Origin: Tribonema minus
Lineage: Eukaryota; Sar; Xanthophyceae; Tribonematales; Tribonemataceae
Length of the DNA stretch: 64,000 nucleotides
Assembly (NCBI GenBank): GCA_017506865.1
Contig: JAFCMP010000035.1
Coordinates: forward strand, 372,001-436,000
Reading direction: 5' to 3'
Shown: in pieces, positions 13,209-53,017 of the stretch
Layout: each line of letters opens with the position of its first letter
Position numbering within the stretch: the stretch's first letter is position 1
Notes under the pieces: generated by a model
What the model was told of the DNA's origin: nothing
The model's input: the letters and a program-made list of their open reading frames with translations, nothing else
Database searches by the model: none
Program-made: the position numbers and the translations under genes

Positions 13209-26884
<13,676 letters not shown>

Positions 26885-28090: not shown

Positions 28091-31000
28091 CTACCGCCGC
28101 CCGCCGCCCCGCTCTCGGCTTTTGGACCGGTGCAACCCAGGCTTGTCGTCTCTTAACGGCTCGCGCACGGCGCCACCGACGCTCATGCCGCCGCCACTGC
28201 CGGTGCGGCGGCGGCTACTGCTGCCGCTGCGGGCGCCTTGGTCGCTTGCGTGCGACGCGCTGCGTGCAGGCGACGCCCCATGCTCGCGGCTGCCGCGCCG
28301 CACGACGCCGCCGCTGCGCTCCCGGCTGGCCCGACGCTCACTGCTGCGCGGCGGCCGGTCCGTGGGGGACGGACTGCGTGGGCGCGAGCGGTCGCGGCTG
28401 CGCGCGAGGCGCGGCGCGGGCGACGGCGCGCGGTTGTGCCCCTGCCTGCGCCGGCCGCCGCTGTCGCGGGATGGGCTCCGCCGCCGGCCGCCGCCGCCGC
28501 CGCTGGCGTCGCGAGCGCTGCGGTCGCGGCTGTCGCGCCCTCTGCCGCGCTCCGCGTGCGGCGTGGGCGGGGACGGGGAGCGCGGCGCCTCACAGTCGAT
28601 GCTGCCGCCGCCGCCGCCGCGGCTGCTGCCGCGCTTGCGGGGCGGCCCGCTGTCGCCCACCGCGGCACGCCCCCTTGAGCGGGACGGCGACGCAGGCCTC
28701 CTGGCATCGGCCCTACGGTCAGGGCTCCTGCTGCTGCGCTGGGGCGTTGCGCTGCGGCGCTTTGCAACAGCGCTCCGCTCGCGGCTCCCTGCGCGCCGTG
28801 GAGACGGCGGCGCCTGGCGCCGCTGCCGCCGCGCGTCCGGGGAATCGTCTCCGCCCCCGCGGACCCCGCTCCCTCGTCGCTCGTGGCTTCCTCGCCTGAG
28901 GCCGCTCGAGGCGCGGCTACGGCTCATGCTGCGCGGGCGGGACGCGGCTCGCGCGCTGCCGGCGCTGCGCTCGCGGTCTCTCGCTCGAACGGGGGACGGG
29001 CTGCGCTTGCGCGGCGACGCTTCACGGCTCCTGGTCCACTCGCGCGTGCCGCCGTCGCCGGGGCGGCACGGCGGACGCGCGCGCTTGCGAGCTGATGCAG
29101 GCGATGCCGCGCTGCGTCGCGCGCCGCCGTCGCGGCCGGGAGACGCAGCGCTGCTGAGCTCGGGGTGTGAGTCGTGCGCTGAAAGTTCTTTCGCAGATTG
29201 GTCCCGCACTACCGAGAGCGCGCCGTGCTCGCTGCGCGCTCGCTTCGGAGGCGAAGCGCTGACGTTGTCACGCTCGGAGGGGCTGCGCCGGCGCCGCTCG
29301 CTGCGGCTGCTGCTGCCGCCGGCGACGCCGCTGTCGTGTTTGCCGCGGGAGTGCATCGCTGCGTCGATCGGCGGTGTGTGCGCATCTGCGGCCGCAGCGT
29401 CTGTACGCGTGCGCTTGTGCGCAGGCGACCGGCTGCGCTGCCGCTCCTCCCGAGAGCGCGACCGCGTGTTCGGACGCCTGTCGACGGCTGCGTCGCTGAC
29501 GCGCCGGCGCGGTGACGGCGGCGGCGACAGTGTCCTTGCGCGCTTGCTGCCTGCGTCGGCGCTTTTGCGACCAGGCGCCGCCGTCGCCGCGGCGTGGCGG
29601 GCCTTCTGATCGCTGCCGCTGCCGCCCCCCCCGCCGGATCCTGACGAGCTCTGGCGCTTGCGAGAAGCGTCACCGCCGTCGCCGCTCCCCCGGGCAGGCG
29701 GTGAGGCGCTGCGCCGCTGCGCTGGCCTCTGAGATACACCGGGCGACACGCTCATGCTGCGCTGTCGCTGCCGAGGCCCCGCGTCCGGCAATCGTCGCGC
29801 CTCCGCCGATCGGCTGCGGTCGCCTCTGCGGCTGCGGGCGGGCGAAGCGCCCGCGCCGCGCTGCCCCTCAACAGCCTCGCGCCGCGCAGGAGACGGCGAG
29901 CGGCGGCCGCCGGCAGCCGGGTGCGCCGCGCGCCGCGTCTCTTCGAGCGTGCGGCCCGGCACTGACGATGCGGAGCGGCTGCGGCTCCGCTTGACGCCGC
30001 CTGTGCGGGCACCGCGGTGCTCCGGGGCAACCGGCACGGAGGGGTGCTGCGCATGCGCGTCGCTCCTGCTGCCGCGGCGGCCAGGCGCTGACGACGGGCT
30101 CCGTGATGGCGCACCGCCGCGCGCGCCGCTGGCGCTGCTGCAGCCGCCGCGGTCTTTGCCATCGCGATGTGCAGTGGGCGCAGGGCTGCGGTGGGTGCGG
30201 CTGCTGCCATGCGCATGTGGCGACCGCGAGGGACTGCGAACTCTGCCGCCGCTGCCATTGCGCTGATGGTCACCGCTGCCGTGGCGTGGCGCCGATTGCT
30301 GCCTCCGCGCGCTGCCGCCTCGGTCTCTGCTGTCGCGGCGATGCGGCGACGGAGGCGCGTAAGCGCTTCTACCGCCGCGGCCGCGGCCGCCGCGCCCGTG
30401 CCCAGGGCTGCGTTGCCGGGACCTTGAGGGCCTACTACCTCTAGTGTGACGCGATGGCGAAGTGTGACGCGAAGGCGAAGGTCTGCTACTGCTGGCATCT
30501 CGAGGCAGCACAGCACGCTCGCTGCCCCGGTCCCGGCTGTCGTGCCAGATATATGCGCTGTTGCCGCCGCCGCGCCGCTCCCTGCTGGGGCGCCCTTCCC
30601 CTCTGCCGCTGTGGCTGCTGCGGCCACCGCCGCCGCTGCCGCCACCGCCGCGATCCCTGCTACCTCGCCTCGGCGGCGACGGCCCTCTCCCTGCCTTGGG
30701 GTGGTGTGCGCCGCTGCTGCCGTGATTACGGCCCTGGCTGCTGTGGCGAGTGCCTGACCGGCTGCGAGGACGCTCCAAGCGACGGCCGCTGCCGCTGCCG
30801 CCGCCGCTGCCGCGCCCGCCGCCACGGCCTCCGCTTGCGCTGTCTCTGCTGTCGCGTCGGTCGCCAACATGCATTCGACTTCGTGAGCGACTCGGAGACC
30901 GACCTCCGCCGCCGTGGTGGCTGCGGCGGCACTGCGACGTGCTGCGGCCGCGCTTGCCCCCCGCCGGCTCGTGCGCGGGGGAATGCCGCCCCCCACGCCC

Positions 31001-34000
31001 CGCGCGACCTCCGGGTTGTGAGCTCCTCTCGCGAGTCCGGCGATCTACCGCCGCCCTGTCGCGCGAGCCGCCACGGGCGTCGCGGCTGTGATGGCTGCCG
31101 CCAGGCGCAGCGCCGTTGCGCGCCCTGGTTGGCGGTGGGCGTGCTGCGCTGTGGCGATCGCCCTCGTGCCGCGGCGCGCCGCCGCCGCCGCCGCTCCTGC
31201 TGCGGCTGCGCCTTCGGCGCGAGGCGTGGCTGGCGCTCCGCCGCCGCGTGTCCGCGCCGCCGCTGGTGCGGCGGCCGCTGTGCCCGTTGACTGCGCCGTT
31301 GCCGCCGCCGCCGCGGTGCGCGGCGTGCTTGTGCGGCGGCGACATGATCTGGGGTGAGCGGCTGCGGCCGTCGGACGCGCTGCGGTCACGTCGCCCGCCC
31401 CCGTTGGTGTGGCGGCCGTCCTTGCGCGCCGGTGGCGGCGTCACGCTGCCGTGCCGCCGCTGCCGCCGCGCGCCACTTTCGCTCGCGCTGTGCCCGTTCG
31501 CGCGCTGCCGGTGCGGCGACGCGCTGTCGCCGCTCCGACCTCGCGCGGCGTCGCCACCGTGCCTTCGCTCCGTGCGCTGCGGCGAGTGCGCGGAGCGCCG
31601 CGTGCGCTTGCCGTTGCGGTCGCTGTCTCGCGGCTCCTCCTTGATGGCGACGCCGCTGGCGCGTTGCGCGTCTCCGCCTGCACAGCAGCGACGACACGCG
31701 GCATTTTCGCAGCGCTCAGCGCATCGCTTGCGCGGAGGATGTATTGCGCTGCAGGCGAGAGCCTGCCGCGCCAGCAGCAGCGTCACACTGACTGGCTGCA
31801 CTGTGGATGCAGCGCCAGCTGGGCGCCTGCAGACGTGCTCGCCGCCATGCCAACTACCAGCAGGCGCACGGGGCAAACGCGGCGCGGCGCGCGGAGGTGG
31901 TGGCAAGTGCCCCAATCGCGGCGGCGACAGTGCAGTGACAGCAGATGCGGCCGTGGAGAATGCCACAACCCCGACTACGGAGCATCCACTGGCCACTCTT
32001 GCGCCTGCACACGTTGCCAAGCACGACAATCGGAGCATTTGCTGCTGCTGCCAAATCCGCCGCTGCTGCTGCCGCCGGTGCCGCCGCTGCTGCCCCAGCT
32101 GCCTCATTTGACATCAATGCTGATGCTACTGATGTCATATCACTGCTGGTGTCGACGGAGGCGGCTGGCCGCTGCTGCCACCGCCGGTGCCGCCGCTGCT
32201 TCCAGTGCCTCAGCCGCCTCCGTCGACACCAGCGGTGCTATGACATCAGTAGCACCAGTGGTGATGTCAAAGGAGGAGGCTGAGGCTCTGGAAGCAGCGG
32301 CGGCACCGGCGGCAGCAGCAGCGGCGGCGGATTCGGCAGCAGCAGCAATGCTTTGAGTGTCGTGCTCGGCAACGTACTCAGGCGCAAGAGTCAGTAGCCA
32401 GTGGACGCTCCGTAGTCGGGGTTGCGGAATCCTCCATGGCCGCAGCTGCTGTCACTGCACTGTCGCCGCCGCGCACGGGGGGGGGCGCTTTCGCGGCGAC
32501 CGGCTCTAGAGCACCGCCTCAAAGTCAGTGCAAGCGCCTGCGGCGGCGGCAGCGACCGTGCTGTCCACAGCCACGGCAGGCAGGCCCTCTGCCTGCAGGC
32601 AGCATCACGCCATGCTGCGGCAGGAGCGGAGCGGTGTTGCTGCCGCAGCGCGCTCTGGGGTGCAGCGCCAGCGCCAACACATTGGTACATTGACGTAACA
32701 CCAGTGCCGGTGAACAAGCGCTTCGGCGTCACCTGCAGCGTGACGCGGTTCATCAGTACCGCACACACTTACCGGTCGCCGCGGTCGCCTCCGCGCCTTT
32801 CGCGCTCCAGCTGAGCTGCTGCGCGCCGCCGCCGCCGCGCCGCGCGCTGCCGCCGCTGGCCGATGGCGGCGTGCCGTCGTCCGAGGCCATCATGTTGTCG
32901 CCGTCGGAATCGACCTCCGCCTTCGTGCGCTGCGCGCGCAGCGGCGGCGTCGTCTCCAGCGGCGACAGGTCCGAGGCGTCCCACCGCGGCTCCGCCTTGA
33001 CCGCCGCCGCCGCACCGGAGCGTGTGACAAGGACCCCGCCGCCGCCGTTCGCAGCCGGCGGCGGCGGCGGCGGCACGTCTGCATGCTCCGCCTTCACCGG
33101 CGTGTTCCCCGCGGACAGTATCGCCCCCAGCCCCATGCCGAAGCCGAGGCCCAGCGCGAGGCTCGACTTCTTCTTGGTGGGCGTCGGCGGCTGGCCCGCG
33201 GGGTCGTCGTCCGCGCCCCCCGGCGGCGGCGGCGGCGGCGGCGGCGGCTCCGGCGACGCGTCGCCGCCGCCCGGCGCACCGCCGGCGACGGCGGGCGTCA
33301 GGCTCACGCCCGCCTTCTCCTGCAGCAGCGGCAGCACGTCCGTCCAGCCGTGCGCCGCGTCGCCGGGCGCGCGCGGCAGCAGCAGCAGGTGCGCCGCGCG
33401 CGCCGCGTCGCCGCCGCCGCGCGAGCGCTGCCGCGACGGCGGCGGCGGGGACGCGTCGTCGCCGCGCAGGTAGGCGCACGCGAGCGCCGCACGCGCGTCG
33501 ACGCGCGCCGCGGGGTCCAGCCGCAGCATCGCGCACAGCAGCTCGCACAGGCCGGGATCCATGGCGCGGCGCCGCTTCTTCAGCGCCGCCTCGCGCTCCT
33601 CGGCGAGGCGCTTGGCGAGGCGCGGGCGGCAGTTGAGCAGCACGCCGCCGGCGTCGCGTGGGCGTAGCTGCACGGGAGGGGGGGGGGGGGGGGGCTGTGG
33701 TCAGGGGATGGGGGAGAGGGGGGCGCTGCAGGAGTCGCCGTTTGAGCATCATTTCACGCCTCATGTGCGGAGGGACGCTCCGATGCGGTGCGGCAGTTGA
33801 GCAGCGTTCCGGCGGTGGTATCACGCGTGGTGGCAGCTGGGCATGCACGCGGCCTTTCGCCGCCGACAGAGGCCTCTGGCGCTGAGGTCGATCGGCGCAC
33901 TGACCCCCACAGTGATCATACAAGAGAGGGGCGCGCTTTTGCAGGCGCCACGCGAGTTGCGCGGTATGCATGTGCCCTGTGAACGCTACTTCTACCTCTG

Positions 34001-37000
34001 AGAGAAGTGCAGCACAAATACTCCGATCGTGGGGCGAGTGAGCGCACCAGCCGCGCCAGTTCGCCGCTGGTCGACAGCATCAGTCCTGCCCGCGTAGCAC
34101 TGCGATCCGCAATGCGAACGAAGGCGCGGCAAGCACCTTTGCATGGGTTCAAAATATGCTCCGCCTCTCGCGCCTGACACGGCCGGCGCGCATGCTTCCA
34201 TATGCAGACATCCACACCACTACGCCTCTGACTGCGCAGACAGCGGCTGCGCAGCACAGAGAGCCAGTTTCATCGCCACGCTGCACCGCCTCTAACGCGT
34301 GCTACGAGAACGGTACGAGCGAGCGGAGCGCTGTGCACGGGCACCTCTCACCTCCTTGTAGAACGGCGCGCGCGCGCCATCGGGCCAGTTGTCCGGCGCG
34401 GGCGTCCCGCAGCTGCGCATCACGTACGCGACCTGCTGCATGCGGTCCTTGCCCGTGAACAGGGGGCGCCCGACGGCGAGCTGCGCTGCCAGGCACGCAA
34501 CTGCATGACGGCAGGGGGGGGGGGGGGGGGGGGGAGTCGGTGTGTTGTGGCATTGTCAAAGATGGATGGGCTGGCAATTTGGTGGCACAACGACGGTACA
34601 TACTGCTGAATCGACTCCAGTCAGCGGCAGACCTGGCTGCCCTGAGTACAGCAGTCGCCAGCATTGCTGCCTGGGGAATTTGCTTGCTAGGGGGGGCACT
34701 GCGTGTAGGGACCGTAGTGGATGCCGGTGCTGGGGCGCGCGTGTTATACATACAAACTTCAGAAGTATATAGAAGGATAGATAGCAAGACAGCAGCAATC
34801 GGGGCACGTCCGTGACACTGGCAAAGCAGCTGGTCAGGACGGACCCACCGGCGCAAGTGTGCGTACACTTGCTGTCCGCATTTACCAAGAGCGGCTCAGT
34901 TGTCCGCGTTCAGCAAGTGCGCGACTTGAACGCCGGCATGCCTCGACGTGCTCGCTCTCACGTCCTGCCCTCAACGCTGCTGTGCAACCAAGGCAACGCC
35001 GTGCGCTGCCGCGCGTGCCTGCTCGGAGAGCTCGACCGGCCCTCGCTCGCTTCTTGCGTTGCATTTGCAGCGCTCAGTACGCTAAGAGGCGCATGTGGAC
35101 ACGTTTGATGAACTTCGAGTTATGAAGTTGGCGGCACGCTGCACCCACCTGCCCATATGTCGCTCGCCTGGGAGTGGCCGCTGGGCACGCCGAGCAGCAG
35201 CTCCGGCGCGAGCAGCGGCAGCACGCGGCGGTTTGGCTCCTTGATGGGCGCCGCCGCCGCGGCCGGCGCCGCGCCCCCTGCGCGCGCGCATCACAAGACA
35301 GGCACCGACTGATCATGAAAACGGGCCGAGCACAGCAGCAGGCACAGACCGGTGGCGAGCGGCTGCCACGCGGCCTGCTGAGCGGTGTGCACGCACGCGC
35401 GCATGCAGGCGGAGGATGCGTTCGCGCGCTTACCCGCGGACGGCGGCGGCGGCGGCGGCTGCGCGCGCTGCGGGCTCGGCGGCAGCGGCGGCGGCGGCGC
35501 CCTGACCGGTGACCCCCCCAGGACGAGAAGCCCCCCTCGAGCTCCTCCGACTGCTGCCGGCGCGGCGTCGTGTCTAGCGGCAGAGAGGTGGGGGTGCTTG
35601 GGGGGAGGGGCGGCTGGCTGGGGGTGAGAGGGGGGGCGGCGGCGGCAGCAGCGGCGACGGGCGGGGGTGGAAGAACGGGGGGCGCTTTTGCGGCCGTTGA
35701 CAGTCCGCCCACGCGCACCGCGCCCGTAGCGGTGATGAAGATGCACGCCGGGTCTATGGAGCGCAGCATGTAGCCCTGAGGGGGGCGGGGTGGAGGGGGG
35801 AGGGAGGGGGGAGGGTTTGTGTGAGGGGACAGCGCAGGCACGGACGCATATGGCGTGCGGTGCGGGTGTCGTGCCTGTGAGCAGTGGCAACGAGCAATCG
35901 GCATGAGCATGAGCATGCACGCGCCGAGCCGGAGGTGCATCGCGCGACGGCAGGTCGTGGAGAGCGTGCAGCAGCGCTCAGGCGCCGGGGCAGCGGCAGC
36001 CCTCGCAGACGCGCCTCTCAGCACCGATGCAACGCTCCCGCTGCTCGATGCACCAACAGAGCGGCGAAGTGCGGCCGTGGCGCGCTGTGCCGCGCCCAAT
36101 AAATGGAGTTGCGAGTGCTGTCGTAGCCAACTCACCGCCTCGTGCACCTCCGCCACGCCCTGCAGCATGCCGCGGACGATGTGCCGCACCAGCGCGTCCG
36201 GCACCGCCATCCACGGCTCAGCGGCGGCGGCAGCGGCGGCGGCGCCGCCCTTGCCGCCGCTGGACGAGGGCTGGCGGCTCATGCGCAGCAGGTCGTTGAG
36301 CGTGAAGGGTACGGCCGGCGCGACAAGCAACTGCGCCGCCGCCGGAGGTGGTGCTGCCGCCGCCGCCGCGCTGCTGCCGTCCGCCGCCTCGTCTGCCGCC
36401 GGCGCTGCCGCCGCCGCCGCCGCTGCCGTGGCCGCGTCCGCGGGCGGCGGCACCAGCTCCAGCGGCAGCAGCACGTGCTGCGCGCCGGTGGCCACGGCGC
36501 CGCTGGCGCTGTCGTCCGCCGCCGCCGCCGCCGCCGCGCGCGTGTGCACCTCCTGCAGCGCGTACACCTCGCACAGCGCGGCGGCGGGGATGCCGATGCC
36601 GCCTGAGCGCTGCTGCTCCTCCTCCTCCGCCGCCCCCGCGGCGCGCCCCGCCGCGCCCCACCACGCGACGCCGACCTCGCGCCAGCGCTCGGAGGCGCCG
36701 CCGTCGCCGCCGCCGCAGTCATCTGCAGGAGAAGAGGGAGTGCCGCGCGTCAGGGGTTGGGCTGCACGCGCAGGCAAGCTTTCTGCGCCCCTGCAGCCTG
36801 CGAGTGCGAGTCATGCACGTCGCGTGTGCGCCGAGTCGTCTGGTGACTGGGAGCTCGTGCGTCGCTATCCCCGTCATGAGTCACAAGTCACTCTCTGCTG
36901 CTGGCAACAACTCTCCTACGCAGTGCCCTGCAGCGCGTGCGCTCTGATCTTCAGTATAAGTGGCGGCGCAGGGGCACCCTTCGCGGCCAACCATGAAGTG

Positions 37001-37565
37001 CGCAGCGCTGCCGCAAGAAATTGTGTCTGCCCGGGGCGCATCTGAGCGCCCCATTCACAGTCCGCATGCGCTGCTCGCGAAACGCTGTTCCGCCACGTCG
37101 GCGCTGCGCACGTGCCGCGTGCGCGCGCAGCGCCGCCCGCGACCGCCACGCGGCGCGCCTCCGCAGCAGCGACGCAAGCAAGCGCTGCCCCCGCCCCCAA
37201 CACACCCTCCTGCCGCAAACGGCTCACCGCGCAACGCGCGCGGCACCGCCGACGAGACGCCATCCACACGCACCCACACGCGCGACGCACCTGGCTCTTC
37301 CGGCGGCGGGTACCCCGGCAGCGCTGCAGCCGCGAACGGCAGGCCCGCCGCGACGAGGCGCGCGTCGCGCACGCCGCCGCTGCGCACGGGCGTCATGAGC
37401 GCCGGCGCGCCGTTGGGCGCGGGCGGCGGCGCCGCGGGCAGGCGCGGCGCGTGCACGTGCGCCGGCTGCAGGTGCGCGAGCGCGAGCGCCTCCGCGGCGC
37501 GCGGCGTGAGCTGCTGCGCCGCCGCGGTCGCATTCGCGCTGGGCGGCGGCGGCGGCGGCGGCGGC
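28091..37565 (-). CDS. CDK-like pseudokinase with a giant C-terminal Arg/Ser domain
   Basis: Exons in transcript order: 37291-37565, 36136-36722, about 35514-35775, 35149-35277, 34352-34500, 32773-33667, 28091-31677 (stop TAG at 28091). Phases agree throughout; the 35514 donor (gtcacc) is weak and is the least certain join. CMGC/CDK landmarks are GIPAAALCEV (helix C, keeps Glu), TLNDLLRMSR, a helix-E segment ending AEVHEA, APELLLG (APE motif), DIWAV-CLA (subdomain IX), GRPLFTGKD and LLCAMLRLDPAARV (subdomain XI). Catalytic residues are gone: no Lys before helix C, HRDxKP reads LRSIDP, and DFG is replaced by GGL. So it should be a pseudokinase, perhaps a scaffold. After a Pro/Gly-rich linker (exon 32773-33667) one exon codes about 1194 residues dominated by R, S, D, G and H (RSRSRS, RDSRDR), as in SR splicing proteins. 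Exon 37291-37565 has an in-frame stop just upstream of its acceptor, so it is either spliced from the cyclin exon or the gene starts at an internal Met (LMTPVRSGG). Confidence 0.78.
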
Positions 37566-37860
37566 CTGCGCAGTGGGCGGAGGGGTGGCGGGCATGGTCA
37601 GCTTGCGCACGGCGGCGACCCGATGCCAGGGAGGTGTGCGGTGCCGCCGGCGCTGCGGCTGAGCTGTTGTCGCAGAGATGTTACGCGCGTTGCGCGCCGT
37701 GCGCCTTTGAACAGGCGGTCTCTCACGACCATCCGCCACGTATCGCCCGCAGACAGGCCACCCACAACGCAGTTCCCACGCACAGTGCGGCCCTCAATCT
37801 GCCTGTTGATCTGCAGCGGGCGTCACGCGAATGCGGCGACCAGCGCGCGAGCGCGGCCCA

Positions 37861-40800: not shown

Positions 40801-43800
40801 TCCGCGCGCGCCAGCCCGCGCAGGCCACGCCCCGGGTACTGCGCCTTGTGGGCGGCCTCCAGCAGCGCTCCAGTGCTGGCGGCGCGCGACTGCATGTGGC
40901 GAGGGGGGTAAAAGGGGGGGGGGGGGGGGTGAAGGGGGGAGGGGGGGGGAGGGGGCGCTGCGAGGAAGAGACAACATCATTGGCTTTTCTGGCGGGATGT
41001 GCGGGGGGTGGACTGCGCGGCGGAGCAACAGAGTTGTGACAACCGGTGGTGGAGTGCACACTGAGGTAAATAGAGTTATGACGACGTATCAAACCCGGCA
41101 CTTTGAAGTCCACACAATCGAGATTGGGGTGCCCAAGGCGGAGGACCACGTCACGCCAGCCGCGTCCCCTGCGTTGATATGATGCATCTGATCTATGGGC
41201 TTGTACATGGGGTGGCGGGCTGCGACACAGGCAGTGCAGCCAGGTGCAGCAGCAGCAGCAGCGGCGGCATTGACAGCAGCAGCAGCAGCAGCAGCAGCGC
41301 TCGCATCGCGCCAGCACGCACCGGCACGCAGCGCACGCGCAGCGTCTTGGTGGCCAGCAGCAGGCACGCCGTCGCCAGCGTGAAGGGGTTGCCCTCGCGC
41401 TGCCCCCACCACCTGGCGCCGCCCGCCTGCGCCAGCAGCAGCGACGCCGCCGCCGCCGCGCCGCCGCTGCCGCCGCCGATGCTGCCGCCGCGCGCGGCCT
41501 GCTCCGTGAGGACGTGGGCAGCCTCGTACCTGCAGCGAAACGCGGACGAGCCAGAGTCAGAGTCAGAGTCAGATGCGGATTTACGGCGGCCAGCGGCGCA
41601 GCAGCGAGAGGCCAGCGCCACGTGCGCTCGGCGAGACGCGGCAAGAGGTCGCCCTCCGCTCGCACGTGCGACGCGCTCTCTGCGCTGCGCTCACAAGTGC
41701 GGCGTGCAGTACGGGCAGAGCGGTAGGGCGGCGACACTGTACGACACGCCGCAGCATCCGCTTGCACGCGGCGGGCGGCGGCAACGGCAGCGGCGGCGAG
41801 TTCCTCAGCGCCGTGTTGCGCCAGGCTCCATCTACTGCAAGTACTTGAATGAGAGCTGAAACCCCGCGCCATGGAACTGGCGAGGCGAGGCGCACGCACC
41901 TCAAGAGGAGGACGCACGCGTGGACTGTCGCCTCCTGCGGGAGCTGAGAGTCCTGGGCGATCTCGCGCAGCACCTGCAGCGCAGCGGCGGCGGCGGCGGC
42001 AGCGGCAGCAGCAGCAGCGCGCAGTGACCGATATGGCGCGGCACGCGACTCTGGCGGCGCGTGAGGTGCACAACAACAGCCATGTGTACGATACTTTGTC
42101 AAAGAGCATGTGCAGCAAGGCAGCATGGCTCAGCACTGCCGCTCTTGTTTAGTGTATTCTAGAAGGTGTCGCACTCGCCTGAGCTGCGCCGTGCTCTGCA
42201 CAACAGCTGTTGACATTCGGGACTCGGCCACGGCGCACGCCACGGGCGCTCGCGATGGACCCCTGTGCTAGGGCTACCAACGGGCAGCGGCCGGGCGCAG
42301 ATGCAGCCGGCTGTCGCGATGCACCTACTCTGTGCACTTGCTGCTGCTGCTGTTGACGCGATGCTCTTTGGCGTCCGGTCATCGCCACCCACGATGAGGA
42401 ATGATGCAATGCGTACGCTCTCTGTTAGACGCATACAGAGATGCCTAGCGACATGGCGGGGTAGTGCAGATGCTGAGCGATGCCGCAGCACGTCGTTTGC
42501 TGGGTGTGTATGGAAGCGCGCAGCGGCGACGCAAGGTATTAGGGTGCTTGTGACTCAACATTACTGCATAGAGGTGATTGTTTGTAACGGTGCAGCAGCA
42601 CTGCGCAGCACGTGTGGCACCTCGCTGTATGGCTGGCGGGCTGATATGGAATCAACTTCAACATGCCGCCTGTGAGCCCTGTGTTACACGACAGCAGAAC
42701 TGCTGCAAAGTGCAAAAAGCACTTCCCTCAATGTACTCCTCGAAGCAAATCCAGCAGTCAATCAGTTTACAGATCATTCTATTGTATCATTGAGAGCCTC
42801 GCGGGTACACACGATGGGCACCTCAGACCTCAACATCAACAAATGACCGGATTCAGCACATACATGACCAAGCGCATATACACGATGCACTTGCGCAGAG
42901 CTGTGCTACAGGAAGGCGTCTCGCTCGGAGATGCCTACATACCTGGAATGTATTCCTGAGCATCTGCTGCGACCGCGCCCCGCTGCTGCCGCTCCTGCCC
43001 GACATGCGCTCCAGCTCCTGTGTGCACGAAGCGAGTTCGCAATGATACACGCAGTTATTCAACACGCCATGAGGTGCGGCATGGGGCCAGTACGTTCGGC
43101 GACGTGTACTAGTACACTTGTGAGATATGCAGCGTCAGCAAGCGAGTGAGGTCGCAGGGGGAGCGTCACTTGCAGCGGTGACGTGCCAGCGGTATTGAAG
43201 CAGGTGCGTCGAACGGAAAGCGAGACTGCCGTTTCCAGCAGGGTGAACTGCCGCTGCGCTCTTATGTCCCGCCCTGGACCCTAACCCGCACGTTGAGTCG
43301 GCAAGACTGTTATGCGGTGCTCCTACAGCATCAGATCTGCACAGGTGTCCGTTAAAGTACGCAGCAGCTGCTGCCGCTACTGTCAAAAGGATGAGGCGTT
43401 TCCCCATTGAGGTCAATTTGGTCAGCTGCAGTTTGGCAGTAGAGCAGATCCGATCACGGCGACCTGTACACAGCACAGCACATCTGTTTTTTGCGGAAAC
43501 ATGACGACCTCTGAACAGGATGTCTAGCACCTCCGAAAATGGGGGTGGATCCATCTGCATCTTGATTTTTACTGGTTAAAGTCGATGTTCGCCATGTATC
43601 AGAGAGAGCCGTAGCAATCTGGACTTCAACAGTCACGACATGGGCAACAGTAGGTACTGCAGCGCTGTGCGTGTACTTGCAGATCAGCTTGAGCAATCTC
43701 AGATCATCAGACCAGTGAGATGAGAGCAAAACGGGCTGCTTTCAGTCCGATGGCTCAACCGCTGCTGCTGGGTCTTGCGCTTCAGCTGACGCCGCCCCCA

Positions 43801-44099
43801 CTGCTGCATTGTCAGCACAGCGCAGCTATGACAAGCGGAGCACGACATGAAAATGCGCACACTGCCAATCTCCCGGCTGTTGTATGATAAACGACCATGC
43901 AAAACCACGCGAACAACAACGGCTACACGTAATACGCGGGAAAGCGAAGCCCGACTCTACCCTGAGTCTAACCTAACCCAAGCCCTAATCCAAAGTGTAC
44001 CTGAGTAGTGAAGCTGTTCCAGTCCCAGCCCATGCACCACCGCCTGCGCTCCCGCGGCGGCGGCGGCGGCGGCGGCGATAGCGTGGGGGTCGGCACGCC
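37861..44099 (-). CDS. Cyclin T/K-like two-fold cyclin
   Basis: Exons in transcript order: 44001-44099, 42943-43017, 41900-41973, 41322-41529, 40721-40889, 39951-40067, 39240-39402, and 37865-38233 (or to the TGA at 37861). Every junction is in phase. The N-terminal signature RRRW...NSFTTQELERMSGR resembles the W-FT-QLENSPSR entry of transcriptional cyclins T/K. Fold 1 continues with VLREIAQDSQLPQEAT and FTLATACLLLATKTL, fold 2 with KIARCEGGVLRALRHDL, DAIAASCCLLVAAAQ and CEQWTEELAPAFVPDAAK, then a helix LQRIADVL. A Gly/Ala-rich insert of about 30 residues splits fold 1. A long Pro/Ser tail follows. Family knowledge: such cyclins activate the RNA polymerase II CTD kinases CDK9/12. No Met precedes RRRWC in the first exon or its upstream frame (a stop occurs first), so this module probably continues from the upstream SET-Tudor exons. 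At the 3' end it stops at TGA 37861 or splices (agcag|gtgatg) in phase to the pseudokinase. Confidence 0.78.
38600..39280 (-). repeat. Tandem copies of a cyclin exon end plus adjacent intron
   Basis: The last ~35 bases of the exon 39240-39402 plus its splice donor (coding ...FVPDAAK then gtgagt) recur at about 39052-39090, 38874-38920 and 38612-38650 with few changes. Adjacent blocks such as cacctcaagaggtgcaagca (38656 and 38767 regions) are duplicated too. All copies have the same orientation and lie in the intron following the true exon, so this is local tandem duplication including a splice donor. Confidence 0.8.
39150..39205 (-). other. tRNA-like B-box and A-box modules in reversed order
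   Basis: On the minus strand a perfect T-arm GCGGG-TTCGAAT-CCCGC (39205-39189) is followed by CTGCATCG, the spacer GGGCTTTTGCCCA (39180-39168), then GTTGTCG and a perfect A box TAGCTCAGTGG (39160-39150). This is the order of a circularly permuted tRNA gene (3' half before 5' half). The presumptive acceptor strands GTTGTCG and CTGCATC pair at only 5 of 7 positions, and no convincing anticodon arm could be built. It may be two decayed neighbouring tRNA fragments; TTTT in the spacer could be an old terminator. It lies in a cyclin intron, same strand. Confidence 0.45.
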
Positions 44100-44351
44100 C
44101 TGCTGCTGCGAAGCGCCCCCTGTAGGCAAGCGCGAATGAGCGTGACGTACGAAGGGGGTTCAGATATGAGCTTGGGCGCGACTGCAGTACTGGGCTTCAC
44201 AGTCCCCCCGACGTTGGTGCGAGATTTGCGCGGACCTGTGGCTCACAGCCCAGAGTCGCAACAGCAATCATTCAACGCGGCTGCTTTGTATGCGAACACG
44301 GTGGTTTTCAGCAACCTAACCCTAATGCTACCCCTGACCTAATCCTAAGCC
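43940..44351 (+). repeat. Degenerate CCCTAA-type repeats flanking a cyclin exon
   Basis: Runs such as ctaacctaacccaagcccta (about 43960-43989) and ctaaccctaatgctaccc plus tgacctaatcctaa (44316-44349) lie on both sides of the exon 44001-44099. They resemble decayed telomere-type hexamers, like the cleaner array at 59301-59363. Confidence 0.6.
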
Positions 44352-45093
44352 ACCGTGCAGTGCGAGCGGCATTGCAACAGTGCTGTCCTCGCGTAGACCG
44401 CGAGTGCAAGCAGCACTTCGCTTTGTGCTGTCAAGAGGTGTCTTCGTTCGGAAGCTGTACTTGCACGGAGGATCGCGCGCACAGGCAGGCAGTGCACGCG
44501 GTGCGACTAGCTCTATCCCGGCCCTGATCCTTGCGCGGATGAACACATGCGGGCCAGAGCGCTGAGGCCCAAGGCTCCCTTGCTGCGCCTCTGCGACACA
44601 TGACATCTGCGGCGTAAGCGACAGCGCTGCGGCAGGCCGTCGCCACTGGGGCGCTGCGGGCGTCGCGCCTCGCACGATGCCACCACGCCAACAACGCAGT
44701 CGATTTCACAGCGCTCAGCCTCACCGGAGCGCTACCTACCTACCCACCGCTGCTCACCTGACATGACGTTGGTGACCTTGCTCAGGTCTGACGCTGGCCG
44801 GGCCTGCATGCGCACGGGCGCGAGAGGGAGAGCGGCGGCGGAAGGCACTGAGCACTGCGCGCCGATTCGCGTCCCTCGACGAGCGTGCGCGTGTCAACAC
44901 AAGCATGCATGGCAGCGCGCGCGCCCAGAGCGCATGTGGCCCCCGCCAGCCCCTCCCTGCCGAATCCGCAGATGCGCGCGCAGCGAAAACAGGTCTGCGC
45001 TTGCAACTATGCTTCTCCGCACTTTCCACGCATGCGCGCGCGCACAGCCGGCCGCCGCAGCATGCACGTCCGCCGCCCCGCTCCTGCACTCAC

Positions 45094-48000
45094 CCCGCGC
45101 GGCTTGTGGTGCGGAGCGCCGCTGCCGCCGCCGCCGCCGCCGTACCCATCGCCGCGGTCGCCCGTCGGCGTGCTGCCGCCGCCGGAGCTCGCCGGCGATG
45201 GCGCGCGTGCGTTGCGCAGCAGCCGCCGCCGCGGCGCGCCCCCACCGCCGCCGCCGCTGCTGCCGTCCGTCGACGGCGGCGGCGCGGCGTCGAAGGGCAG
45301 CAGCGGCGGCAGCGGCGCGAGCGGCGGGCGCTCCTTCTTGCGGATGAGCGCGCGCGCGTCGCCGGCGTCGCGGTCCTCCCAGATCTGCCATGAGTTCTCC
45401 GCGTCGACCTTGCCAAAGAGGTCCTCCTCCGTCTCGACGGTCTGCGCCGGAGAGAGATGTTGGGGGAGAGGGGGGGGGTGTCATGATGCGTCGCAGGCTC
45501 CGAGAGCGGCGTGAGGCGGACAACGCCGTGTGGCGACGCCTGCGGTGCGCGTGGCTTGCGCTGGTGTTGACGTCGGGCTGATGGTAGCTGCCACTGCCGC
45601 TGAGCACCCGCTCCATGTGTTGGAAGGTGACGGCTGATTGAGGTTACACGGTCACACGCAATGCTCGTCGTGACAGGCGCCTTGGGCTGATGCGTGCATG
45701 CCCGCGCGCCGCTCATCACCGTTAATGGCGCGTGACGCATGGCGATGGCTCCTGTTGCACTTGAAAATGGTCAACGTAGATGCATGAGACGGCTTGATCA
45801 CATCTCGGCTACAGCATCACGAGTATCCGTGGGCGGCACGTGAACGGCCCAGGTCCGGTGTCACCAGAGCGGACAGACCGTACGCACGAGACACTGCTCT
45901 TCTATGACTTTCCAACGCGGTGACAGGGTCGTAAGGCATGAACCATGCGCTTTATTGATAGGCTGCAATCTACTTCTACATCGCAGACTACAGCAGAGCG
46001 CGTGCGTGCATCGCAACGGCGTCGCATTCACGCTGCAAGGCCGGAGCGTTGACGCAGCTCACCTCCTCCCCGTCGTAGCCCACGTAGTGCTTGCCTTTCT
46101 CCGCGTTGTAGCGCAGCACCTGTGGGGCGGGGGGACACCGCACGCACAGGCAAGGGTAAGCATCGGCAAGGGGACTGTGGTACGGCCGAAGGCTGCAGGA
46201 GCGGCGCACAGCGCGTCTGCCGGCCGCGCGCCGCTGAGCTTGAAGCGACAAACAAAGAAGGCGACAGCGGCGGCGCACAGAGGAACGGCCGAATGAACCA
46301 GCGTCGGCGATTGAGGCGCGGTCGCCGCGGCTCGCAGCTCAGCTTCCGCACCGCGGCGTTGGCATTGCCATACAGCAGCTGCAGCGCGAGCACCGCCGCC
46401 GCGTTGGGCGCACCGCCAAGTGCCACACCAGGCCGCGCGCGATTCGAAGCGGAGTACCAGCCATGTGCAGATGCCAGTTCTGACCGCAGATGCAAGAGAG
46501 CGCGCTGCGCCCTCTGCAACAAGACACGCCACACGCAAGCAGTGCGTGCGCGTTCGCCGACCGGGCCCAGGCCGCAGCGCGGGCGGCGGCGCTCGGCGGC
46601 AGCAGCGGCAGCACCACAGCAGCGCTCACCGGCAGCGCGCAGCAGCAGCAGCGCTCACCTTGGCGGTGAAGTACACGCCCATGCCGTCCCAGAAGATCTT
46701 GACGCGGCGGCCCACGAGGCCCTCGCCCTCGCTCGCCTCGTCCTCTGTGGGCGCCCGGAAGACGCCCTGGGGGGGGTGCGCAGGGGGGGATGAGGGGATG
46801 TCAGCAGGGGGAGCAAGGGGGGGGGGGGGGGGGGGCACCACATGTGCGTGCGCACCTGACACGCAACAGATGTCTACATTGCAGTGAGATTGCCTTGCCT
46901 CATTATTGCATGACATCTCACGCAGGCAGCGAGCGCTTCGGACGGACATGGCCTACGCTGTGACGGCGAAGAGTGGTTACTGCACCGACAAGACACGCAT
47001 GCCATCCAAAATCAAGTGCTATACCCCAGCAGCAAGAGGCATCTGATGAACAGCAGCTGCTATCATTGCAGGGGGCATAGTGCCAGCCTGGAACTATGTC
47101 GATGGCGTCAGCATGCATGCCCACAGAACCACAACTCCCATTACGTTACCGACATCGCTTGCTGAATACGAAGCGCCGCGACAGCTGCACGACGCGCGCA
47201 GGCAGACACGTTGTGGATGCTGAAATCGGCATGTATACATACCTTGGCATCGGCGACCGCCGCGGCCGCTGCCACCGCCTGCAAACAGCGAGCGCAACAG
47301 CAGCGGGCATGAGGGCAGCAGCAGGCGTCAATAGGGGCTGTCCGCTGAGAAAACGGACAGATCCTGATGCTGTCACAATGATTTGGTACGGGGGGGGTAG
47401 GTTCAGACCCAGCAGTTGCATAGCGCGCATGTGGCGTGGTCTACCCTCAACAACACATCTGCACAAATGCAAGGAGCACTGCTGATACCACCCGCGACGA
47501 TGCTCCACCCCCCCCCCCCCCCCCCCCCCCCCCGCGGCCCCCGACCCCCCCCTCTCACCTGCTGGTACTCGGCGGACTCCACCTCTATGAACCCGCGGCA
47601 CGCGGGCGCGCCGCACAGGCACTTGGTCTTCTGGCGCGCCTTGTGGTGCCCCCACTGGTAGTCAAACGAGAGCTCCGTGCCGGCGGCGAGGTCGCGCTTG
47701 GCGAACACGGCGCAGCGCACGCGCCCGCCCGCGCGCCAGCGGTCCAGGCGGCACGTCGGCTCGCAGCTGCAGCAGCGCGCGCGTGTGGCGTGGATGCAAG
47801 ATAATAATATGTGATTGATGTATGGAGAGTGGGGTAGTGGCTGCGCCCGTTGCGCAGCTCCTGCCGCGCAGCTCACTCTCCGCAGCGCTTGCCCGGCTGC
47901 GGAGCGCCTGACGCACAGACATTGCCGATGTGTCTGACCGGACGCACTGCGACGGCGACGGCAGCGCCGCAGCTCGGCGGGTGCCGGCTGTGCATGGAGG

Positions 48001-51000
48001 CACGGGCACACATCGCGCTGCCGTTGCGGTACAGCCGCCTCGACCAGGCCACGCCAATCGCATGTTCAAAGCTCAGTGAAGGCGATTGGATGCATCTCAC
48101 ATTCCGCACGCGCTGCACACACAAAAGAGATCGTGACAGCGCCGCGAGTCTGGCAGGGGGGCCTGCGCGGCGTGTGCCCGAGCACCGCGCAGCGGGGCAC
48201 TACACAAAGCGTTGTCGCAGCAGCAAGCAAGCTGCTGTAGATGGCATGCAAACGAAGGCAGACCACCATGCGCAGAAACGCGGCGCGCATGCTCAGTGCT
48301 TGCTCCTTCCATCAATGCAAGCGCTCCGGAGCGAGCCTGAGCAGAAGCGGTGCCTGTGATCGCTGCGACTCACGCGGAGCGCCTGCGCTACGCCGCCTCT
48401 GCGCTGCGCCTCCGCGTTGCGCTGGCGACGTGAGCGTCCCCTGCAATTCGACCAGAGCGCTGGCGCACGACACCCCGGCACGGTTGACATGGTGTGCGTG
48501 CGCAGAGATATGTCGTGCTGTTCCCAACGTGTTACCTGTGGTTGATGAAGCGCGCCACACCGCCCTTGCGCTTGGCGTCCAGGAAGAGGTTCTGTGCCAG
48601 CTGCATGACGTACAGCTTGGACAGGCCGCCGCCGCTCTGCGGGGGCGCACACAAGTGACACATCAACGCGCTTAGCTCAGACAGACCTTGATATTTGTGC
48701 AAGTGCAGCGCTTAGCTCAGAGAGACCCTGCTCTTGTTGTTGTTGTGCAAGTGCATCATGCGTCGCTCAGGGAGAGCTTGCTTTTTGTGCAAGCGCATCT
48801 GTGCTGGCGCTGTGCGATGTGCTTTCTGACTGACACAGAGAGGGCGCAGGACGAGCCCTGTGACAGGGGCGACGAACCAGTGTTTTCATGCGTCTCAAGG
48901 TCGTCCTACTGCAGCACGCAGAGCGCGTCTAAGTGCCATCGGCCATCGTGGCAGTGTGCTTGAAGTTTCCCATACTGCGATTGAACGCGCACTTGATGAT
49001 GAAGCTAGAGGGCCTGTGCATTGGAAGTCACACTTGAACTTACAATCTGAGGTAACCGCCAAAATGTGCCAATGACTTCAGCATCCTCATCAAGCACGCT
49101 GGGACTGGCGTTACGCGCCAGCGGATGCGGCCCAGGTGCGCTCACCATTGGCCTAGTCACCACCTTAGACAATGCACGCTGTGGCCTCAGTGTGCAGATG
49201 TCGCCAAACACCCCGCCAGGCACTTAACGACCGTTGCTGATGATCATCAGACTTCACCGGCCCTAGGAGTGGCGTTCTCGACCGTGTCTACCGCCAAGGC
49301 CTTTGACAAGCGGTGGCTACGTGTCATCTACGCGTTCATCGATGTTCCATGCGGTGCATGCCGTCATGCCAGGCGCATGCTGTCACGGGCATACCGCTGC
49401 ATGTCATGGTCACACCGGGCTACGTTGGTCAGTTCCGCTACAGCCATGTAATAATGAGGGCACATTTGGTAAGGCGGAGTGGAGCTGCTGCAGCGATTGG
49501 GCGCCGCGCATACTTCCATCGCTTGTACTTCAACGCTGCCCTACCCTGTTCTCATACGCTTCAACTTTTCAGGCGACGCGCACGCTTCTGGCAGCCGCCC
49601 CTACTTGCAGCACAGCGCGCAGCCCCAACATCGCGGTAACACTCGACACGGGTGCCCCCAACAGCGCCGCCGATGCCGTCTCGCATAGCACAGCAACGCT
49701 CAGCAACAGCTACGTCGGCGTCAACTGCGCCGCCGCCGCGGCCACGCAGCAACACTGGCGGCATCAATTCGGCGCGGGTGCTGTCTCACCTCTTGCATGC
49801 GCTTGGCCCGCTCTATAGGCCCAATAACCTCCCCCACGTACTCCACCAGCAGCTGATCCGCCTTGACGTCCTCCAGAACGCGCAGCCCCCAGCCCTTGCC
49901 ACCCGCCGCGAACACCTCCAGCTGCGTAACGGGGCGATGGGGGGGGGGCACGGTGCGCTGACAGTTACGTCACAGTTACATGATGAGACACGGACGCACA
50001 GTGGCAGTGCATGCAAAGTTGCGCGCATTGCTGGTCTATCGTGAGTTTGCGGCGCATGCTTAGTTGCCCATCCTTGAATCGTGAAGCCATGGAGTCACAT
50101 GCCAGCCGTATATGACCTGCACGCTTACGTATGCGCATGTGCTTTCCGGCAGCGTGGCGCAATGCCGCAGCATCGGTTCAGCGCGTAGGCCGATGCAATC
50201 GCGTGCGATCCGCCGCTCTACCAGCCAGTCTGAACACCGCCGCCGGCGTGATTGATTGCACACGCCAAGGCCAAAAACGGAAGCGCAACAAACCGGACGC
50301 AAGGCGGCATGCGCAGCACATGAGGCAGCCTCTGCGAAAGCGCGTCGCGCGCTTGCTCACCTGCGCGAACTGCTTCCTCTGCAGCCGCTGGTTGCGGCAC
50401 ATGCGCGTGCAGCGCGCGCGCGGGCACTCCGTCTGCACGGCGTAGTTGATGCAGCCGTTGTCGGCGCACGTCGCCTCGGCCGCGCTCTCGGCGGGCGCGC
50501 ACATGCAGCGCGCCGCCTCGTCGTCCGAGTCGTAGCCGTCGCTGACCTGCGGCGGCGGTGGCGGCGGCAGTGCAGCATCATTGTTGTGGGTATCGGCGCT
50601 GTCTGTGAGCGTCAAGGGCGGTCGTACTTCGCAAAGTATCATGGAGCAGCGAATGTGTAGGCCTGACTGCATGGCGGCGTGCGCATGGCACGGCGGCGGC
50701 GGCAGCGCAAGATTATTATCGCAGGTATCAGCGCTGTCTGTGAGGGTCAAGGGCGGTCGTACTTGAAAACATCATGAAGTAGCGAACATGCGCTTCCTTC
50801 ACGTAGCCCCGACTGCATGGCAGCACGCGCATGGCACAGCGGCGGCGGTGCGAGATTATGATAGCGGGTATCGGCGCTGTCTGTGAGGGTCAAGGGCGGT
50901 CGTCCTTTCAAGATGTCATGAAGCAGCGAATGCGCAGGCCTGACTGCATAGCAGCGTGCGCATGGCGCGGCGGCGGTGGCGGCGCGAGAGTATTGCGGCT

Positions 51001-53017
51001 ATCGGCGCTGTCCGTGAGGGTCAAGCGCAGTCGTACTTTGCCAAGTATCATGGAGCAGCGAACGTGTAGGTTGCGCGTGTGCTTGGGGCGTGCACGCGGC
51101 GGAGTGGACATGCGGCGCGGCGGCGCTAGCTCGCAATGGTGGCGCTGTCTGTGAGGGGCGAAGTGTGGTCGTGGCGCAGAGCGCAGATGCTACGCATGTT
51201 GGTAGCACGTATGCGCGGCTGCAGCGGCGCTGCGGCGCGCGGTCCGGGCCGAGCTGCACCGCCGATCCGCGCGGCGCTTGCAGGCGCACAGCGCGCACCG
51301 TCACCAGAGCTACCAGAGCACGCGCGCGCGCTGGCGATTGGCAATGTGGCAGAGTGCGGCGCACTGGCCCCGCATCGCACAGCCGCAGCGACCATTGGAG
51401 GATAGACGGCACGGGATGAGCACTGCCAACGGCCAGTAAGGCTGGGGGTTTACGCGCGACATTACCACTAATGAAGGCCAGCACAAGGTCAGGGCTCGGA
51501 GCCGAGGCACCTGTGGCCAAGGCTCGTCAAGGCGAGGCGAGGGCTGACTCTACCCCGCAAGATAGGGGCAGTGGAGCAGCTGGTGTTTTGATACAAACGA
51601 CCGTCAGCGGCGCTGTTACTGAGCGGTGTGCTTGTGTTGTTCATGGCAACGCTCAGTCGGCGCCGTTGGCACAGACGACGGGCATCGGTGCTGCCGTCGC
51701 AGCGCTTGCTGATCGATGAGCAACAAAGGTCGCGTAATCGATATGAACCGCAACAGAGCGCAGGGCGACTGCAGACTGCGGCACACGGGTGGCGAAGGAA
51801 CCCACGCCACTAACATCAGTGAGATGTGGACGTTGCGGCCGTGCAGGAATGCTGGCATCCGCATGTCGCTGCATGCGCCGAACATGTAACCGTGACTGAA
51901 GCAGGGTTGCATGGTCAATGTGGGCCACCTCGCAGTACGCCAACACAGGCGCCATGCCATCACACGGGCAGATCATAAGCACCTCGTTGCACTCTGACCG
52001 ACTTATCATGTTTTGCAGTCTCGGGTTGCTCGTGCGTAGCCACAACAGCTGCAGTGCCCACAGACAGTATGATCTCTCTTGAATCCAACACTTTCTTGTG
52101 AGGTGGATTACTTCAACGTGCAGACCTACACCTGTACATACATGATAACGTAGAGCTCTCTGCTCACAAATGAGCAAAAAGACAGCTTCCCGAGCAATCT
52201 CACAGTTTGACTTCTCGGCTATGAGGAATTAGCTGTGCTGCCATATTTTTGACCGTTGCGGCGAGCTGCTGCGCTGCTGCTGTTGTTGGATATGCATGCT
52301 TTGGTAAATGAAACAGGCTCTTTATAAAGAACGCGGAGCATGATATAATGCTGGAGCAATCGGGCGCAGGACTGTCACTCGGTCGCGTTGCAGCGCGCGA
52401 AGAGCTCGCCAACAGTAGATTATCGAACTCCTGAAGCTCGCACAGCGATGCATACGACGAGCATGTCACATGCGCGAGGTTTGTCGAACGACACCGCTTC
52501 ACAGCCTGCGGATCCAATAGCGTTGACTCTGCGCCACAAATATAAAAGCAATGCAGCCAACGATGACTTTTCAGCACTCGGCGCTGGCTTCGGATTGCTG
52601 GTGTGTTGACATCACCAACACTACAGCAACAGTGCTACCGACTGACCCGGTGGATCGTGCAGCATAGGGTGTGAGCTAGCGGGGCGCCCCCATGTGAGAA
52701 AAGCACCAACGTCCTGCCAACTTGAACAGGCCGTAGGATCTGTCGAGAACCAAGCTCACCTCGCCCAGCGCACGAGCGGACTGCTTGCCATCCCGCCCTT
52801 TAGATGCGGCAACGTTGTCCTCGATCAGCTCGAAATCTTTCTGCCATGGCAAAGCACCCCAGTTCGCCTTCATTTGTGCGAAAGTCATGGCACTTGCTGC
52901 TTCCTTTCCATGGTCCCTGCCAGCCCTCGCTGCTGCATCGCCGCGATCAGCGCCAGCCGCCTCCGCCGCGGCCGCCTCTCCCCCACCCTCAGCGGCCCTC
53001 TGGCCGTCATCAGACAT
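45094..53017 (-). CDS. SET2/ASH1-type histone lysine methyltransferase with Tudor-like domain
   Basis: Exons in transcript order: 52760-53017, 50361-50546, 49790-49921, 48536-48636, 47559-47766, 46659-46766, 46063-46119, 45094-45441; all joins are in phase. The ATG at 53017 opens an Ala/Gly/Glu-rich leader, then FELIEDNV as in SETD2-like proteins just before AWS. Exon 2 is a Cys-rich AWS domain (CMCAP...CINYAVQTEC...CRNQRLQRKQ). SET motifs are GKGWGLR, VEYVGEVI, RFINHSCEPTC and ELSFDYQ, followed by the post-SET CLCGAPACRG. All zinc and SAM-site signatures look intact, so it should be active; H3K36 is the likely target by family, inferred. Next, LVGRRVKIFW...YFTAKV, YNAEKGKHYVGYDGEE and NSWQIWED form a Tudor-like fold spanning three exons. 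Exon 45094-45441 ends at a strong donor (gtgagt) and continues in phase into the cyclin exon at 44099. A stop at 45988 would end the protein early only if the donor at 46062 were unused. Confidence 0.9.
50560..51110 (-). repeat. Minisatellite, four copies of about 122-125 bp
   Basis: Four imperfect units share ggtatcggcgctgtctgtga, gggtcaagggcggtcgtact, catcatggagcagcgaa-like and gcctgactgcatggc-like segments, followed by a GCGGCGGC block. A fifth truncated unit is near 51130. The array ends about 14-20 bases from the acceptor of the AWS exon (50546), inside intron 1 of the SET gene. Confidence 0.88.

Follow-up and report, generated by a model that had tools for sequence, protein, structure and literature searches.

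A gene that appears to join a histone methyltransferase to a cyclin and an inactive kinase is described here from the yellow-green alga Tribonema minus. It lies on the minus strand of a 64,000-nucleotide stretch of DNA, contig JAFCMP010000035.1:372001-436000, referred to below as the window. The gene model very probably represents a real conserved multi-domain protein, in which a SET methyltransferase is followed by a Tudor fold, a cyclin, a pseudokinase resembling the cyclin-dependent kinases (CDKs) and a tail rich in arginine-serine (RS) pairs. Judged from the DNA and its relatives, it is highly likely that one gene runs from SET through the cyclin, likely that the same gene extends through the pseudokinase, and rather probable that it also takes in the RS tail. 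The protein belongs to a conserved family with members in diatoms; in the brown alga Ectocarpus the family is seen up to the cyclin.

A profile search returned 256 proteins at E<=1e-20 (of 7992 candidates scored), and the domain counts that follow cover 120 of these matches. PF00069 (kinase) and PF00856 (SET) occur together in 116 of the 120 matches listed, 14 of which also carry PF00134 (cyclin), and 12 of the 13 entries that name an organism are from diatoms. The motif order SET, cyclin, kinase is found in 115 of 122 family proteins. Hidden Markov models (HMMs) of the SET, Tudor, cyclin and kinase parts, built with the window sequence left out, match the window chain in the same order. P0098, P0119, P0123 and P0146 are MMETSP transcript entries. 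The original prediction of a single SET-Tudor-cyclin-pseudokinase gene, which had proposed looking for this domain order in related genomes, is supported by relatives with the same combination, these four transcripts among them. Because the relatives carry the same combination, the join does not look like an accident of gene prediction.

Individual members illustrate the architecture. P0002-P0004 (1844-1936 residues) have SET and Pkinase matches above the Pfam cutoff, and P0003 also Cyclin_N. The shortest returned protein carrying the pseudokinase has about 1520 residues. The nearest relative, P0001 from Ectocarpus, is annotated as partial and ends after the cyclin. P0005 was considered as a full relative and set aside; its SET domain matches (5.5e-36), and the family HMMs miss both cyclin and kinase. 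A search for longer relatives with the full 2873-residue query gave 13 matches, none recognisable as family by name or listed domains. P0120 is labelled Alexandrium tamarense, a dinoflagellate, and scores like the diatom entries; contamination of the source is suspected. KH-like segments lie between Tudor and cyclin in P0002-P0004 and at residues 649-720 of P0001, and are seemingly absent from the window gene. These segments have no Pfam name and are read as KH-like from the sequences and from the beta-alpha pattern that the model of P0001 shows.

The exons were located from three-frame views and joined by script, within a 158 Mb assembly of 554 contigs in which the window is C35:372001-436000. 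From the ATG at 53017 to the TAG at 28091 all intron phases match, and the sole stop is the final codon. The preferred model has 24 exons, 8622 nucleotides and 2873 residues. The 23-exon chain of the original prediction could be rebuilt with the same ATG, TAG, exon 45441-45094 and alternative stops (open reading frames, ORFs, ending at 45988 and 37861), and its sum of 8556 nucleotides is reproduced when acceptor 44099 is used directly in place of a micro-exon and acceptor 44119. The exons of the preferred model are as follows.

52760..53017, minus strand: E1, start exon and pre-AWS region, with ATG 53017; the alignment to Ectocarpus P0001 begins at residue 46.
50361..50546, minus strand: E2, AWS domain (Pfam AWS 25.5 bits on the ORF, 21.8 joined; cutoff 23.3).
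49790..49921, minus strand: E3, first part of the SET domain (Pfam on ORF and joined chain).
48536..48636, minus strand: E4, middle of SET, its 3′ end being the NHSC motif (joined chain, Pfam).
47559..47766, minus strand: E5, end of SET and post-SET (Pfam on ORF and joined chain).
46659..46766, minus strand: E6, first part of Tudor (the family Tudor HMM covers E6-E8).
46063..46119, minus strand: E7, middle of Tudor; unspliced read-through leads to the stop at 45988 (frame view, Tudor HMM).
45094..45441, minus strand: E8, end of Tudor and a Gly/Ser/Pro linker, without Met (P0001 alignment, Tudor HMM).
44758..44803, minus strand: E8b, micro-exon entered in phase 0 and left in phase 1 (acceptor 9.4, donor 12.3 bits); absent from the earlier chain.
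44001..44119, minus strand: E9, cyclin N-terminal G.DW motif (cyclin alignment); acceptor 44119 scores 9.2 bits against 5.0 for 44099.
42943..43017, minus strand: E10, cyclin (cyclin alignment).
41900..41973, minus strand: E11, cyclin HA..LL.R helix (cyclin alignment).
41322..41529, minus strand: E12, cyclin A..A.K helix (cyclin alignment).
40721..40889, minus strand: E13, cyclin E..L..D motif (cyclin alignment).
39951..40067, minus strand: E14, second cyclin fold (cyclin alignment).
39240..39402, minus strand: E15, second cyclin fold (cyclin alignment).
37865..38233, minus strand: E16, end of cyclin and Pro-rich linker; donor 37865 overlaps the alternative stop TGA 37861.
37291..37565, minus strand: E17, linker between cyclin and pseudokinase; in-frame GC content at third codon positions (GC3) 0.95, no BLAST alignment to the 8 proteins compared.
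36136..36722, minus strand: E18, pseudokinase N-lobe with alpha-C and hinge-like regions (kinase alignment).
35514..35775, minus strand: E19, degenerate catalytic loop LRSIDPACIF, DFG lost, 3′ end uncertain (kinase alignment; donor -1.2 bits).
35149..35277, minus strand: E20, region of the pseudokinase APE motif (Pfam, kinase alignment).
34352..34500, minus strand: E21, pseudokinase C-lobe (Pfam, kinase alignment).
32773..33667, minus strand: E22, remainder of the pseudokinase C-lobe, followed by a linker (Pfam, kinase alignment).
28091..31677, minus strand: E23, RS-rich tail of 1195 residues with the TAG stop (116 RS/SR pairs), linked to E22 solely through phase and splice sites.

Splice sites were scored with a weight matrix trained on 14 donors and as many acceptors taken as homology-supported, each scored leave-one-out. 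The gene holds 1276 GT and 1453 AG sites, the top 1% of donors starting at 10.1 bits and the top 2% of acceptors at 9.1. Scanning the E8-E9 interval for phase-0 exons whose two sites each reach 4 bits yielded three candidates, all with acceptor 44803. The best is 44803-44758, whose phase-1 end fits acceptor 44119. The direct splice from 45094 to 44099 proposed earlier is in phase; it has been demoted to an alternative because the route through the micro-exon has much higher splice scores. The accompanying statement that no Met precedes the conserved Trp of the cyclin does not hold. A Met sits three residues ahead of the family-invariant D-W pair, and the micro-exon contains a second one; the missing-Met argument by itself therefore cannot exclude a separate cyclin start. 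The polyadenylation-type signals AATAAA, ATTAAA and TGTAA are all absent from 45094-44120 and from 37865-37300. Long coding-strand C runs precede the acceptors near 33690, 34520, 40930, 46850 and 49960 (approximate positions) and seem to serve as pyrimidine tracts in a GC-rich genome. Several two-exon forms of E19 have better sites, but the best of them lose the conserved stretch after the catalytic loop and none was adopted.

The SET motifs of the methyltransferase are intact. In the joined window piece Pfam SET scores 2.9e-20, above the cutoff, and AWS passes on the single ORF while falling below in the joined piece. The AWS-SET-post-SET layout with NHSC and FDY motifs is present, a layout common to the ASH1 group. 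Of the 123 rows in the family alignment, 122 retain the N, H and C of NHSC and 121 its S; the FDY motif has its D and Y in 122 rows and its F in 121. Against PDB chains the window SET scores 148.4 bits with ASH1L, 146.0 with a chain which we take to be Set2 and 137 with SETD2; its core scores 71.5 and 70.9 with Set2 and 70.8 with ASH1L. The SET domain of P0004 is nearest SETD2, 18 bits over the next group. The genome has 39 SET matches, and the three other SET exons that were typed are of ASH1 type (contig C514), SET1 (C528) and SET1/MLL type (C516); the Set2 role is therefore left open to the window gene and may fall to it. The enzyme is predicted to be a Set2/ASH1-group H3K36-type methyltransferase, probably of the Set2/SETD2 branch.

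The Tudor fold, which Pfam does not name in the window, is detected by the P0001 alignment and by the HMM from relatives. It had been proposed to cross into the Met-less exon 45094-45441, and this is upheld. P0001 aligns through the stretch and the window-free HMM covers residues 306-388. The SRI domain of Set2 was found by Pfam in none of P0001-P0005 (E<=0.1; P0001 is partial) and nowhere within residues ~1-814 and 932-1451 of the window chain. A genome-wide SRI search returned nothing, its controls being likewise empty. The genome-wide AWS search also had empty controls, and it missed the AWS of the window itself.

The cyclin resembles transcription-type cyclins, and the kinase is CDK-like. 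The window cyclin and the hinge columns of the kinase were misaligned in the full-length alignment, and separate cyclin and kinase alignments were used instead. A profile of seven family members, window included, matches a T/K/L-type cyclin box, with CycT1 at 6e-8, CycL2 9e-8, CycL1 1e-7, CycK 0.014 and CycC 0.09. No cell-cycle cyclin is among its 36 matches, which comprise only T1, L1, L2, K, C with its yeast counterpart, and CCL1. The kinase profile, from six members including the window, ranks CDK13 first (129.9 bits) among the best 60 of 1398 matches, followed by CDK12 (126-127), CDK3 (123.5), PHO85 (123.1) and CDK2 (up to 120.3). In the joined window piece Pfam Pkinase scores 4.8e-10, above the cutoff. 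The genome has a single site with a PITA(L/I)RE-type pattern (L024, contig C60); the exon there resembles a CDK10/11-type kinase helix.

In all family members scored, the catalytic Asp residues of the kinase are absent. Of the 123 aligned rows 120 could be scored, leaving out P0001, which has no kinase, the poorly aligned P0005 and one gapped member. The HRD Asp is kept in none of the 120, window included, being replaced by T in 43, S in 41, N in 25 and other residues in 11. An Asp is likewise found in 0 of 120 at the DFG columns, whose identity rests on the alignment. The two Asp residues expected of an active C-terminal domain (CTD) kinase are thus both gone. At the same time 119 of the 123 rows retain the P and E of the APE motif, and the D.W motif has its D in 119 rows and its W in 117. 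Since the HRD and DFG Asp residues are lost and the APE and D.W residues kept, the kinase fold seems to be retained and catalysis lost. The description of these parts as CTD-kinase-like can accordingly hold for ancestry and fold only, because the catalytic Asp residues are missing.

The RS tail has 116 RS/SR pairs in 1195 residues (R 22%, S 17%). Phase and splice sites allow it in the same gene, as had been suggested, and it is seen only in the window model. Among 122 family proteins the whole-protein RS/SR density reaches at most 2.3 per 100 residues. This maximum is found in P0001, which has 20 such pairs within its first 175 residues, i.e., at the opposite end.

Several points weigh against this account of the gene and its domains. 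In T. minus the join into one protein rests on phases and splice sites, the transcript entries coming only from relatives. The search words were drawn from the first 500 residues, the SET side, so relatives without SET could not be candidates. With P0001 breaking off behind the cyclin in a partial entry, the cyclin-kinase join can be compared only with more distant relatives, and neither E17 nor the RS tail aligns to the eight proteins compared. The E19 donor at 35514 is poor (-2.3 bits with a larger training set), the best alternative single in-frame donor reaching only 0.3 bits, and the E16 donor at 37865 is middling. If E7 is unspliced, the frame runs into the stop at 45988, and an AATAAA follows some 30 bases further on, at 45956; a short isoform cut inside the Tudor fold is therefore possible. 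The cyclin is weak by Pfam, with Cyclin_N at 14.2 bits in the window against a cutoff of 23 (E 0.036) and above the cutoff in just one of five relatives scanned (P0003). Taken alone, P0004 ranks FUS3 (66.6), CDC2-type (65.1), PHO85 (63.6) and other kinases over CDK12 (62.3). In the large alignment one of the DFG columns holds an Asp for P0005; the family HMM finds no kinase in this protein. The Set2 placement is nearly tied with ASH1L, both over the whole SET domain and in the core. The structure predicted for P0001 with 32 relatives has a mean pLDDT (predicted local distance difference test) of 49.4 and contains no kinase; SET and Tudor are mostly above 70, the KH-like segment and cyclin helices lower. 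All of the best 50 of 898 Foldseek matches to this model are SET structures, so the comparison is silent on the cyclin.

The place where the chain could most plausibly break is E16. Donor 37865 is its sole donor above 1 bit, and the TGA at 37861 directly overlaps it. A SET-Tudor-cyclin gene could end there, leaving the pseudokinase and RS tail to a neighbouring gene, as if the fusion had been split in this species. Such a split would suit a donor of 4.7-5.1 bits where 12 of the 14 supported donors have at least 7 (the others being E9 with 4.3 and E4 with 6.6), and also P0001 ending after its cyclin, though that entry is marked partial. It is nevertheless unlikely. Of the 120 listed relatives, 116 hold SET and kinase on one chain, donor 37865 is in phase with acceptor 37565, E17 has its high GC3 in exactly that frame, and the intervening interval lacks all three signals named above. 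A break further upstream, with separate SET-Tudor and cyclin genes and the cyclin ATG inside 44803-44758, is very unlikely indeed. The micro-exon holds ATGTCAG ahead of its donor and could be a start exon, the missing-Met argument being no obstacle; yet the acceptor ahead of it is strong and its reading frame continues that of E8, neither of which a start exon would need. Moreover, 119 of 120 members with the cyclin motif (all but P0106) also have the SET motif in one and the same protein, in a search that favoured SET-bearing proteins.

What the cyclin and pseudokinase do for the methyltransferase is a matter of proposal. A Set2-type enzyme with no SRI detected, attached to a dead CDK-like kinase and a transcription-type cyclin, suggests the pair as a docking part. 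Cyclin and pseudokinase would fold onto one another and form a module that resembles a cyclin-CDK pair but has no catalytic activity. The module would dock the methyltransferase on elongating RNA polymerase II (Pol II) or its partners and so take the part that SRI plays in yeast Set2. Further contacts, to chromatin and to splicing factors, would come from the Tudor and RS parts. In yeast, trimethylation of H3K36 (H3K36me3) requires CTDK-I and the binding of SRI to the phosphorylated CTD, according to the portion of PMC4446442 drawn on here. Ctk1 is the counterpart of CDK12, and the association of Ctk1 and Set2 with chromatin is RNA-dependent, as given in the part of PMC5457138 used. However, Set2 fused to Pol II without CTDK-I gives some K36me2 and no K36me3 (PMC4446442, same portion), which speaks against the proposal. 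Docking alone may thus not suffice, and because tethering alone failed to restore H3K36me3 the mechanism is put at slightly below an even chance. The fuller picture is more tentative. It holds that a stramenopile Set2 acquired, before diatoms and brown algae split, a built-in dead CTDK-I/P-TEFb pair replacing SRI as the link to Pol II, the RS tail being a splicing contact in the window lineage; it seems possible, though on balance doubtful.

Pseudokinases are often allosteric partners, and the main functional rival to a dock is a brake. The module could act as an allosteric switch on SET, like the auto-inhibitory region of yeast Set2. That middle domain can be antagonised by SRI, in the same part of PMC4446442, and the lack of K36me3 after tethering to Pol II fits a brake as well. 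The sequence facts fit docking equally, and a brake is a serious possibility that we hold to be somewhat improbable. Alternatively, cyclin and pseudokinase might be functionless relics, and the SET enzyme alone would matter. Loss of the kinase Asp residues and the weak Pfam score of the cyclin would agree with this, but neutral relics are expected to decay, and here non-catalytic residues are kept, not only those of APE and D.W but also the cyclin Asp (121 of 123 rows). Relics are therefore quite unlikely, and the docking module is retained as the working proposal.

Other features of the window include repeats within the gene itself. The 3′ end of E15 with its splice donor is repeated down the next intron (38591-39263) in four copies of a 49-nucleotide family. 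Similarity to the reference copy is 61, 88 and 69%, and the pattern looks like repeated duplication of the exon end. The first intron holds a 143-base unit repeated 1.9 times (50657-50930). Outside the gene, CCTAAC is present 11 times at 59299-59364, a telomere-like repeat inside the contig, and a tRNA-Gln (CTG) is encoded on the minus strand at 21832-21904.

A natural chain of a Set2-type enzyme with a dead cyclin-kinase would be an evolutionary shortcut of the yeast link from CTD kinase through SRI to Set2. It would also offer a ready test of the scaffolding role of a kinase apart from its catalysis. Diatom SETD2 homologs carry conserved motifs IV-VII, whose identity is left unstated in section 2.1 of PMC10421102. 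They are probably the same proteins as the window family, which may explain these unassigned motifs; the words cyclin and kinase do not occur in the main text of that paper. Nor do they occur in the available text of a paper on brown algal chromatin (PMC13076208). SETD2 candidates are listed among stramenopile lysine methyltransferases in PMC3145265, the available part of which does not contain the word cyclin, and the term SET domain is absent from the available part of a paper on oomycete domain fusions (PMC2705460). The original prediction knew of no described protein with such an architecture. This stands for the full chain, since no description of SET, cyclin and pseudokinase in one protein was found in the literature searched (subscription papers and preprints being outside its scope). 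It does not stand for the methyltransferase-dead CDK fusion, which was reported in 2010.

Several known systems invite comparison. With Set2/SETD2 and ASH1 the window protein shares AWS-SET, intact catalytic motifs and a post-SET stretch; the family differs by having no SRI in the five relatives scanned and by the added Tudor, cyclin and pseudokinase. With CDK12/13-CycK and CDK9-CycT (yeast CTDK-I and Bur1) it shares profile affinity, CDK13 and CDK12 ranking first and CycT1, CycL and CycK among the best. In contrast to these pairs it lacks the catalytic Asp residues, has cyclin and kinase in one chain and carries an attached methyltransferase. Phytophthora infestans has CDKs with C-terminal cyclin domains, possibly inactive, with a single Asp to Asn change (kinome paper PMC3019232, in the part consulted). 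They share with the window a cyclin and a possibly inactive CDK in one chain, but there the kinase precedes the cyclin and no methyltransferase is present, whereas in the window the cyclin comes before the kinase. The closest described protein is PITG_14137 of P. infestans, reported as a fusion in which a histone-lysine methyltransferase at the N-terminus is followed by an inactive CDK-like kinase; P. ramorum and P. sojae have orthologs, and the structure is stated to be absent from other species (same part of PMC3019232). By that paper's description, the only basis of the comparison, the window shares the order of methyltransferase first and inactive CDK-like kinase last. No cyclin or Tudor is mentioned for PITG_14137 in this part of the paper, and the window has both. 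The family may extend a Phytophthora curiosity to other stramenopiles. New in relation to the Phytophthora fusion are the cyclin, the Tudor fold and the diatom and brown-algal relatives, in a family where the presence of a cyclin and a pseudokinase has drawn little notice.

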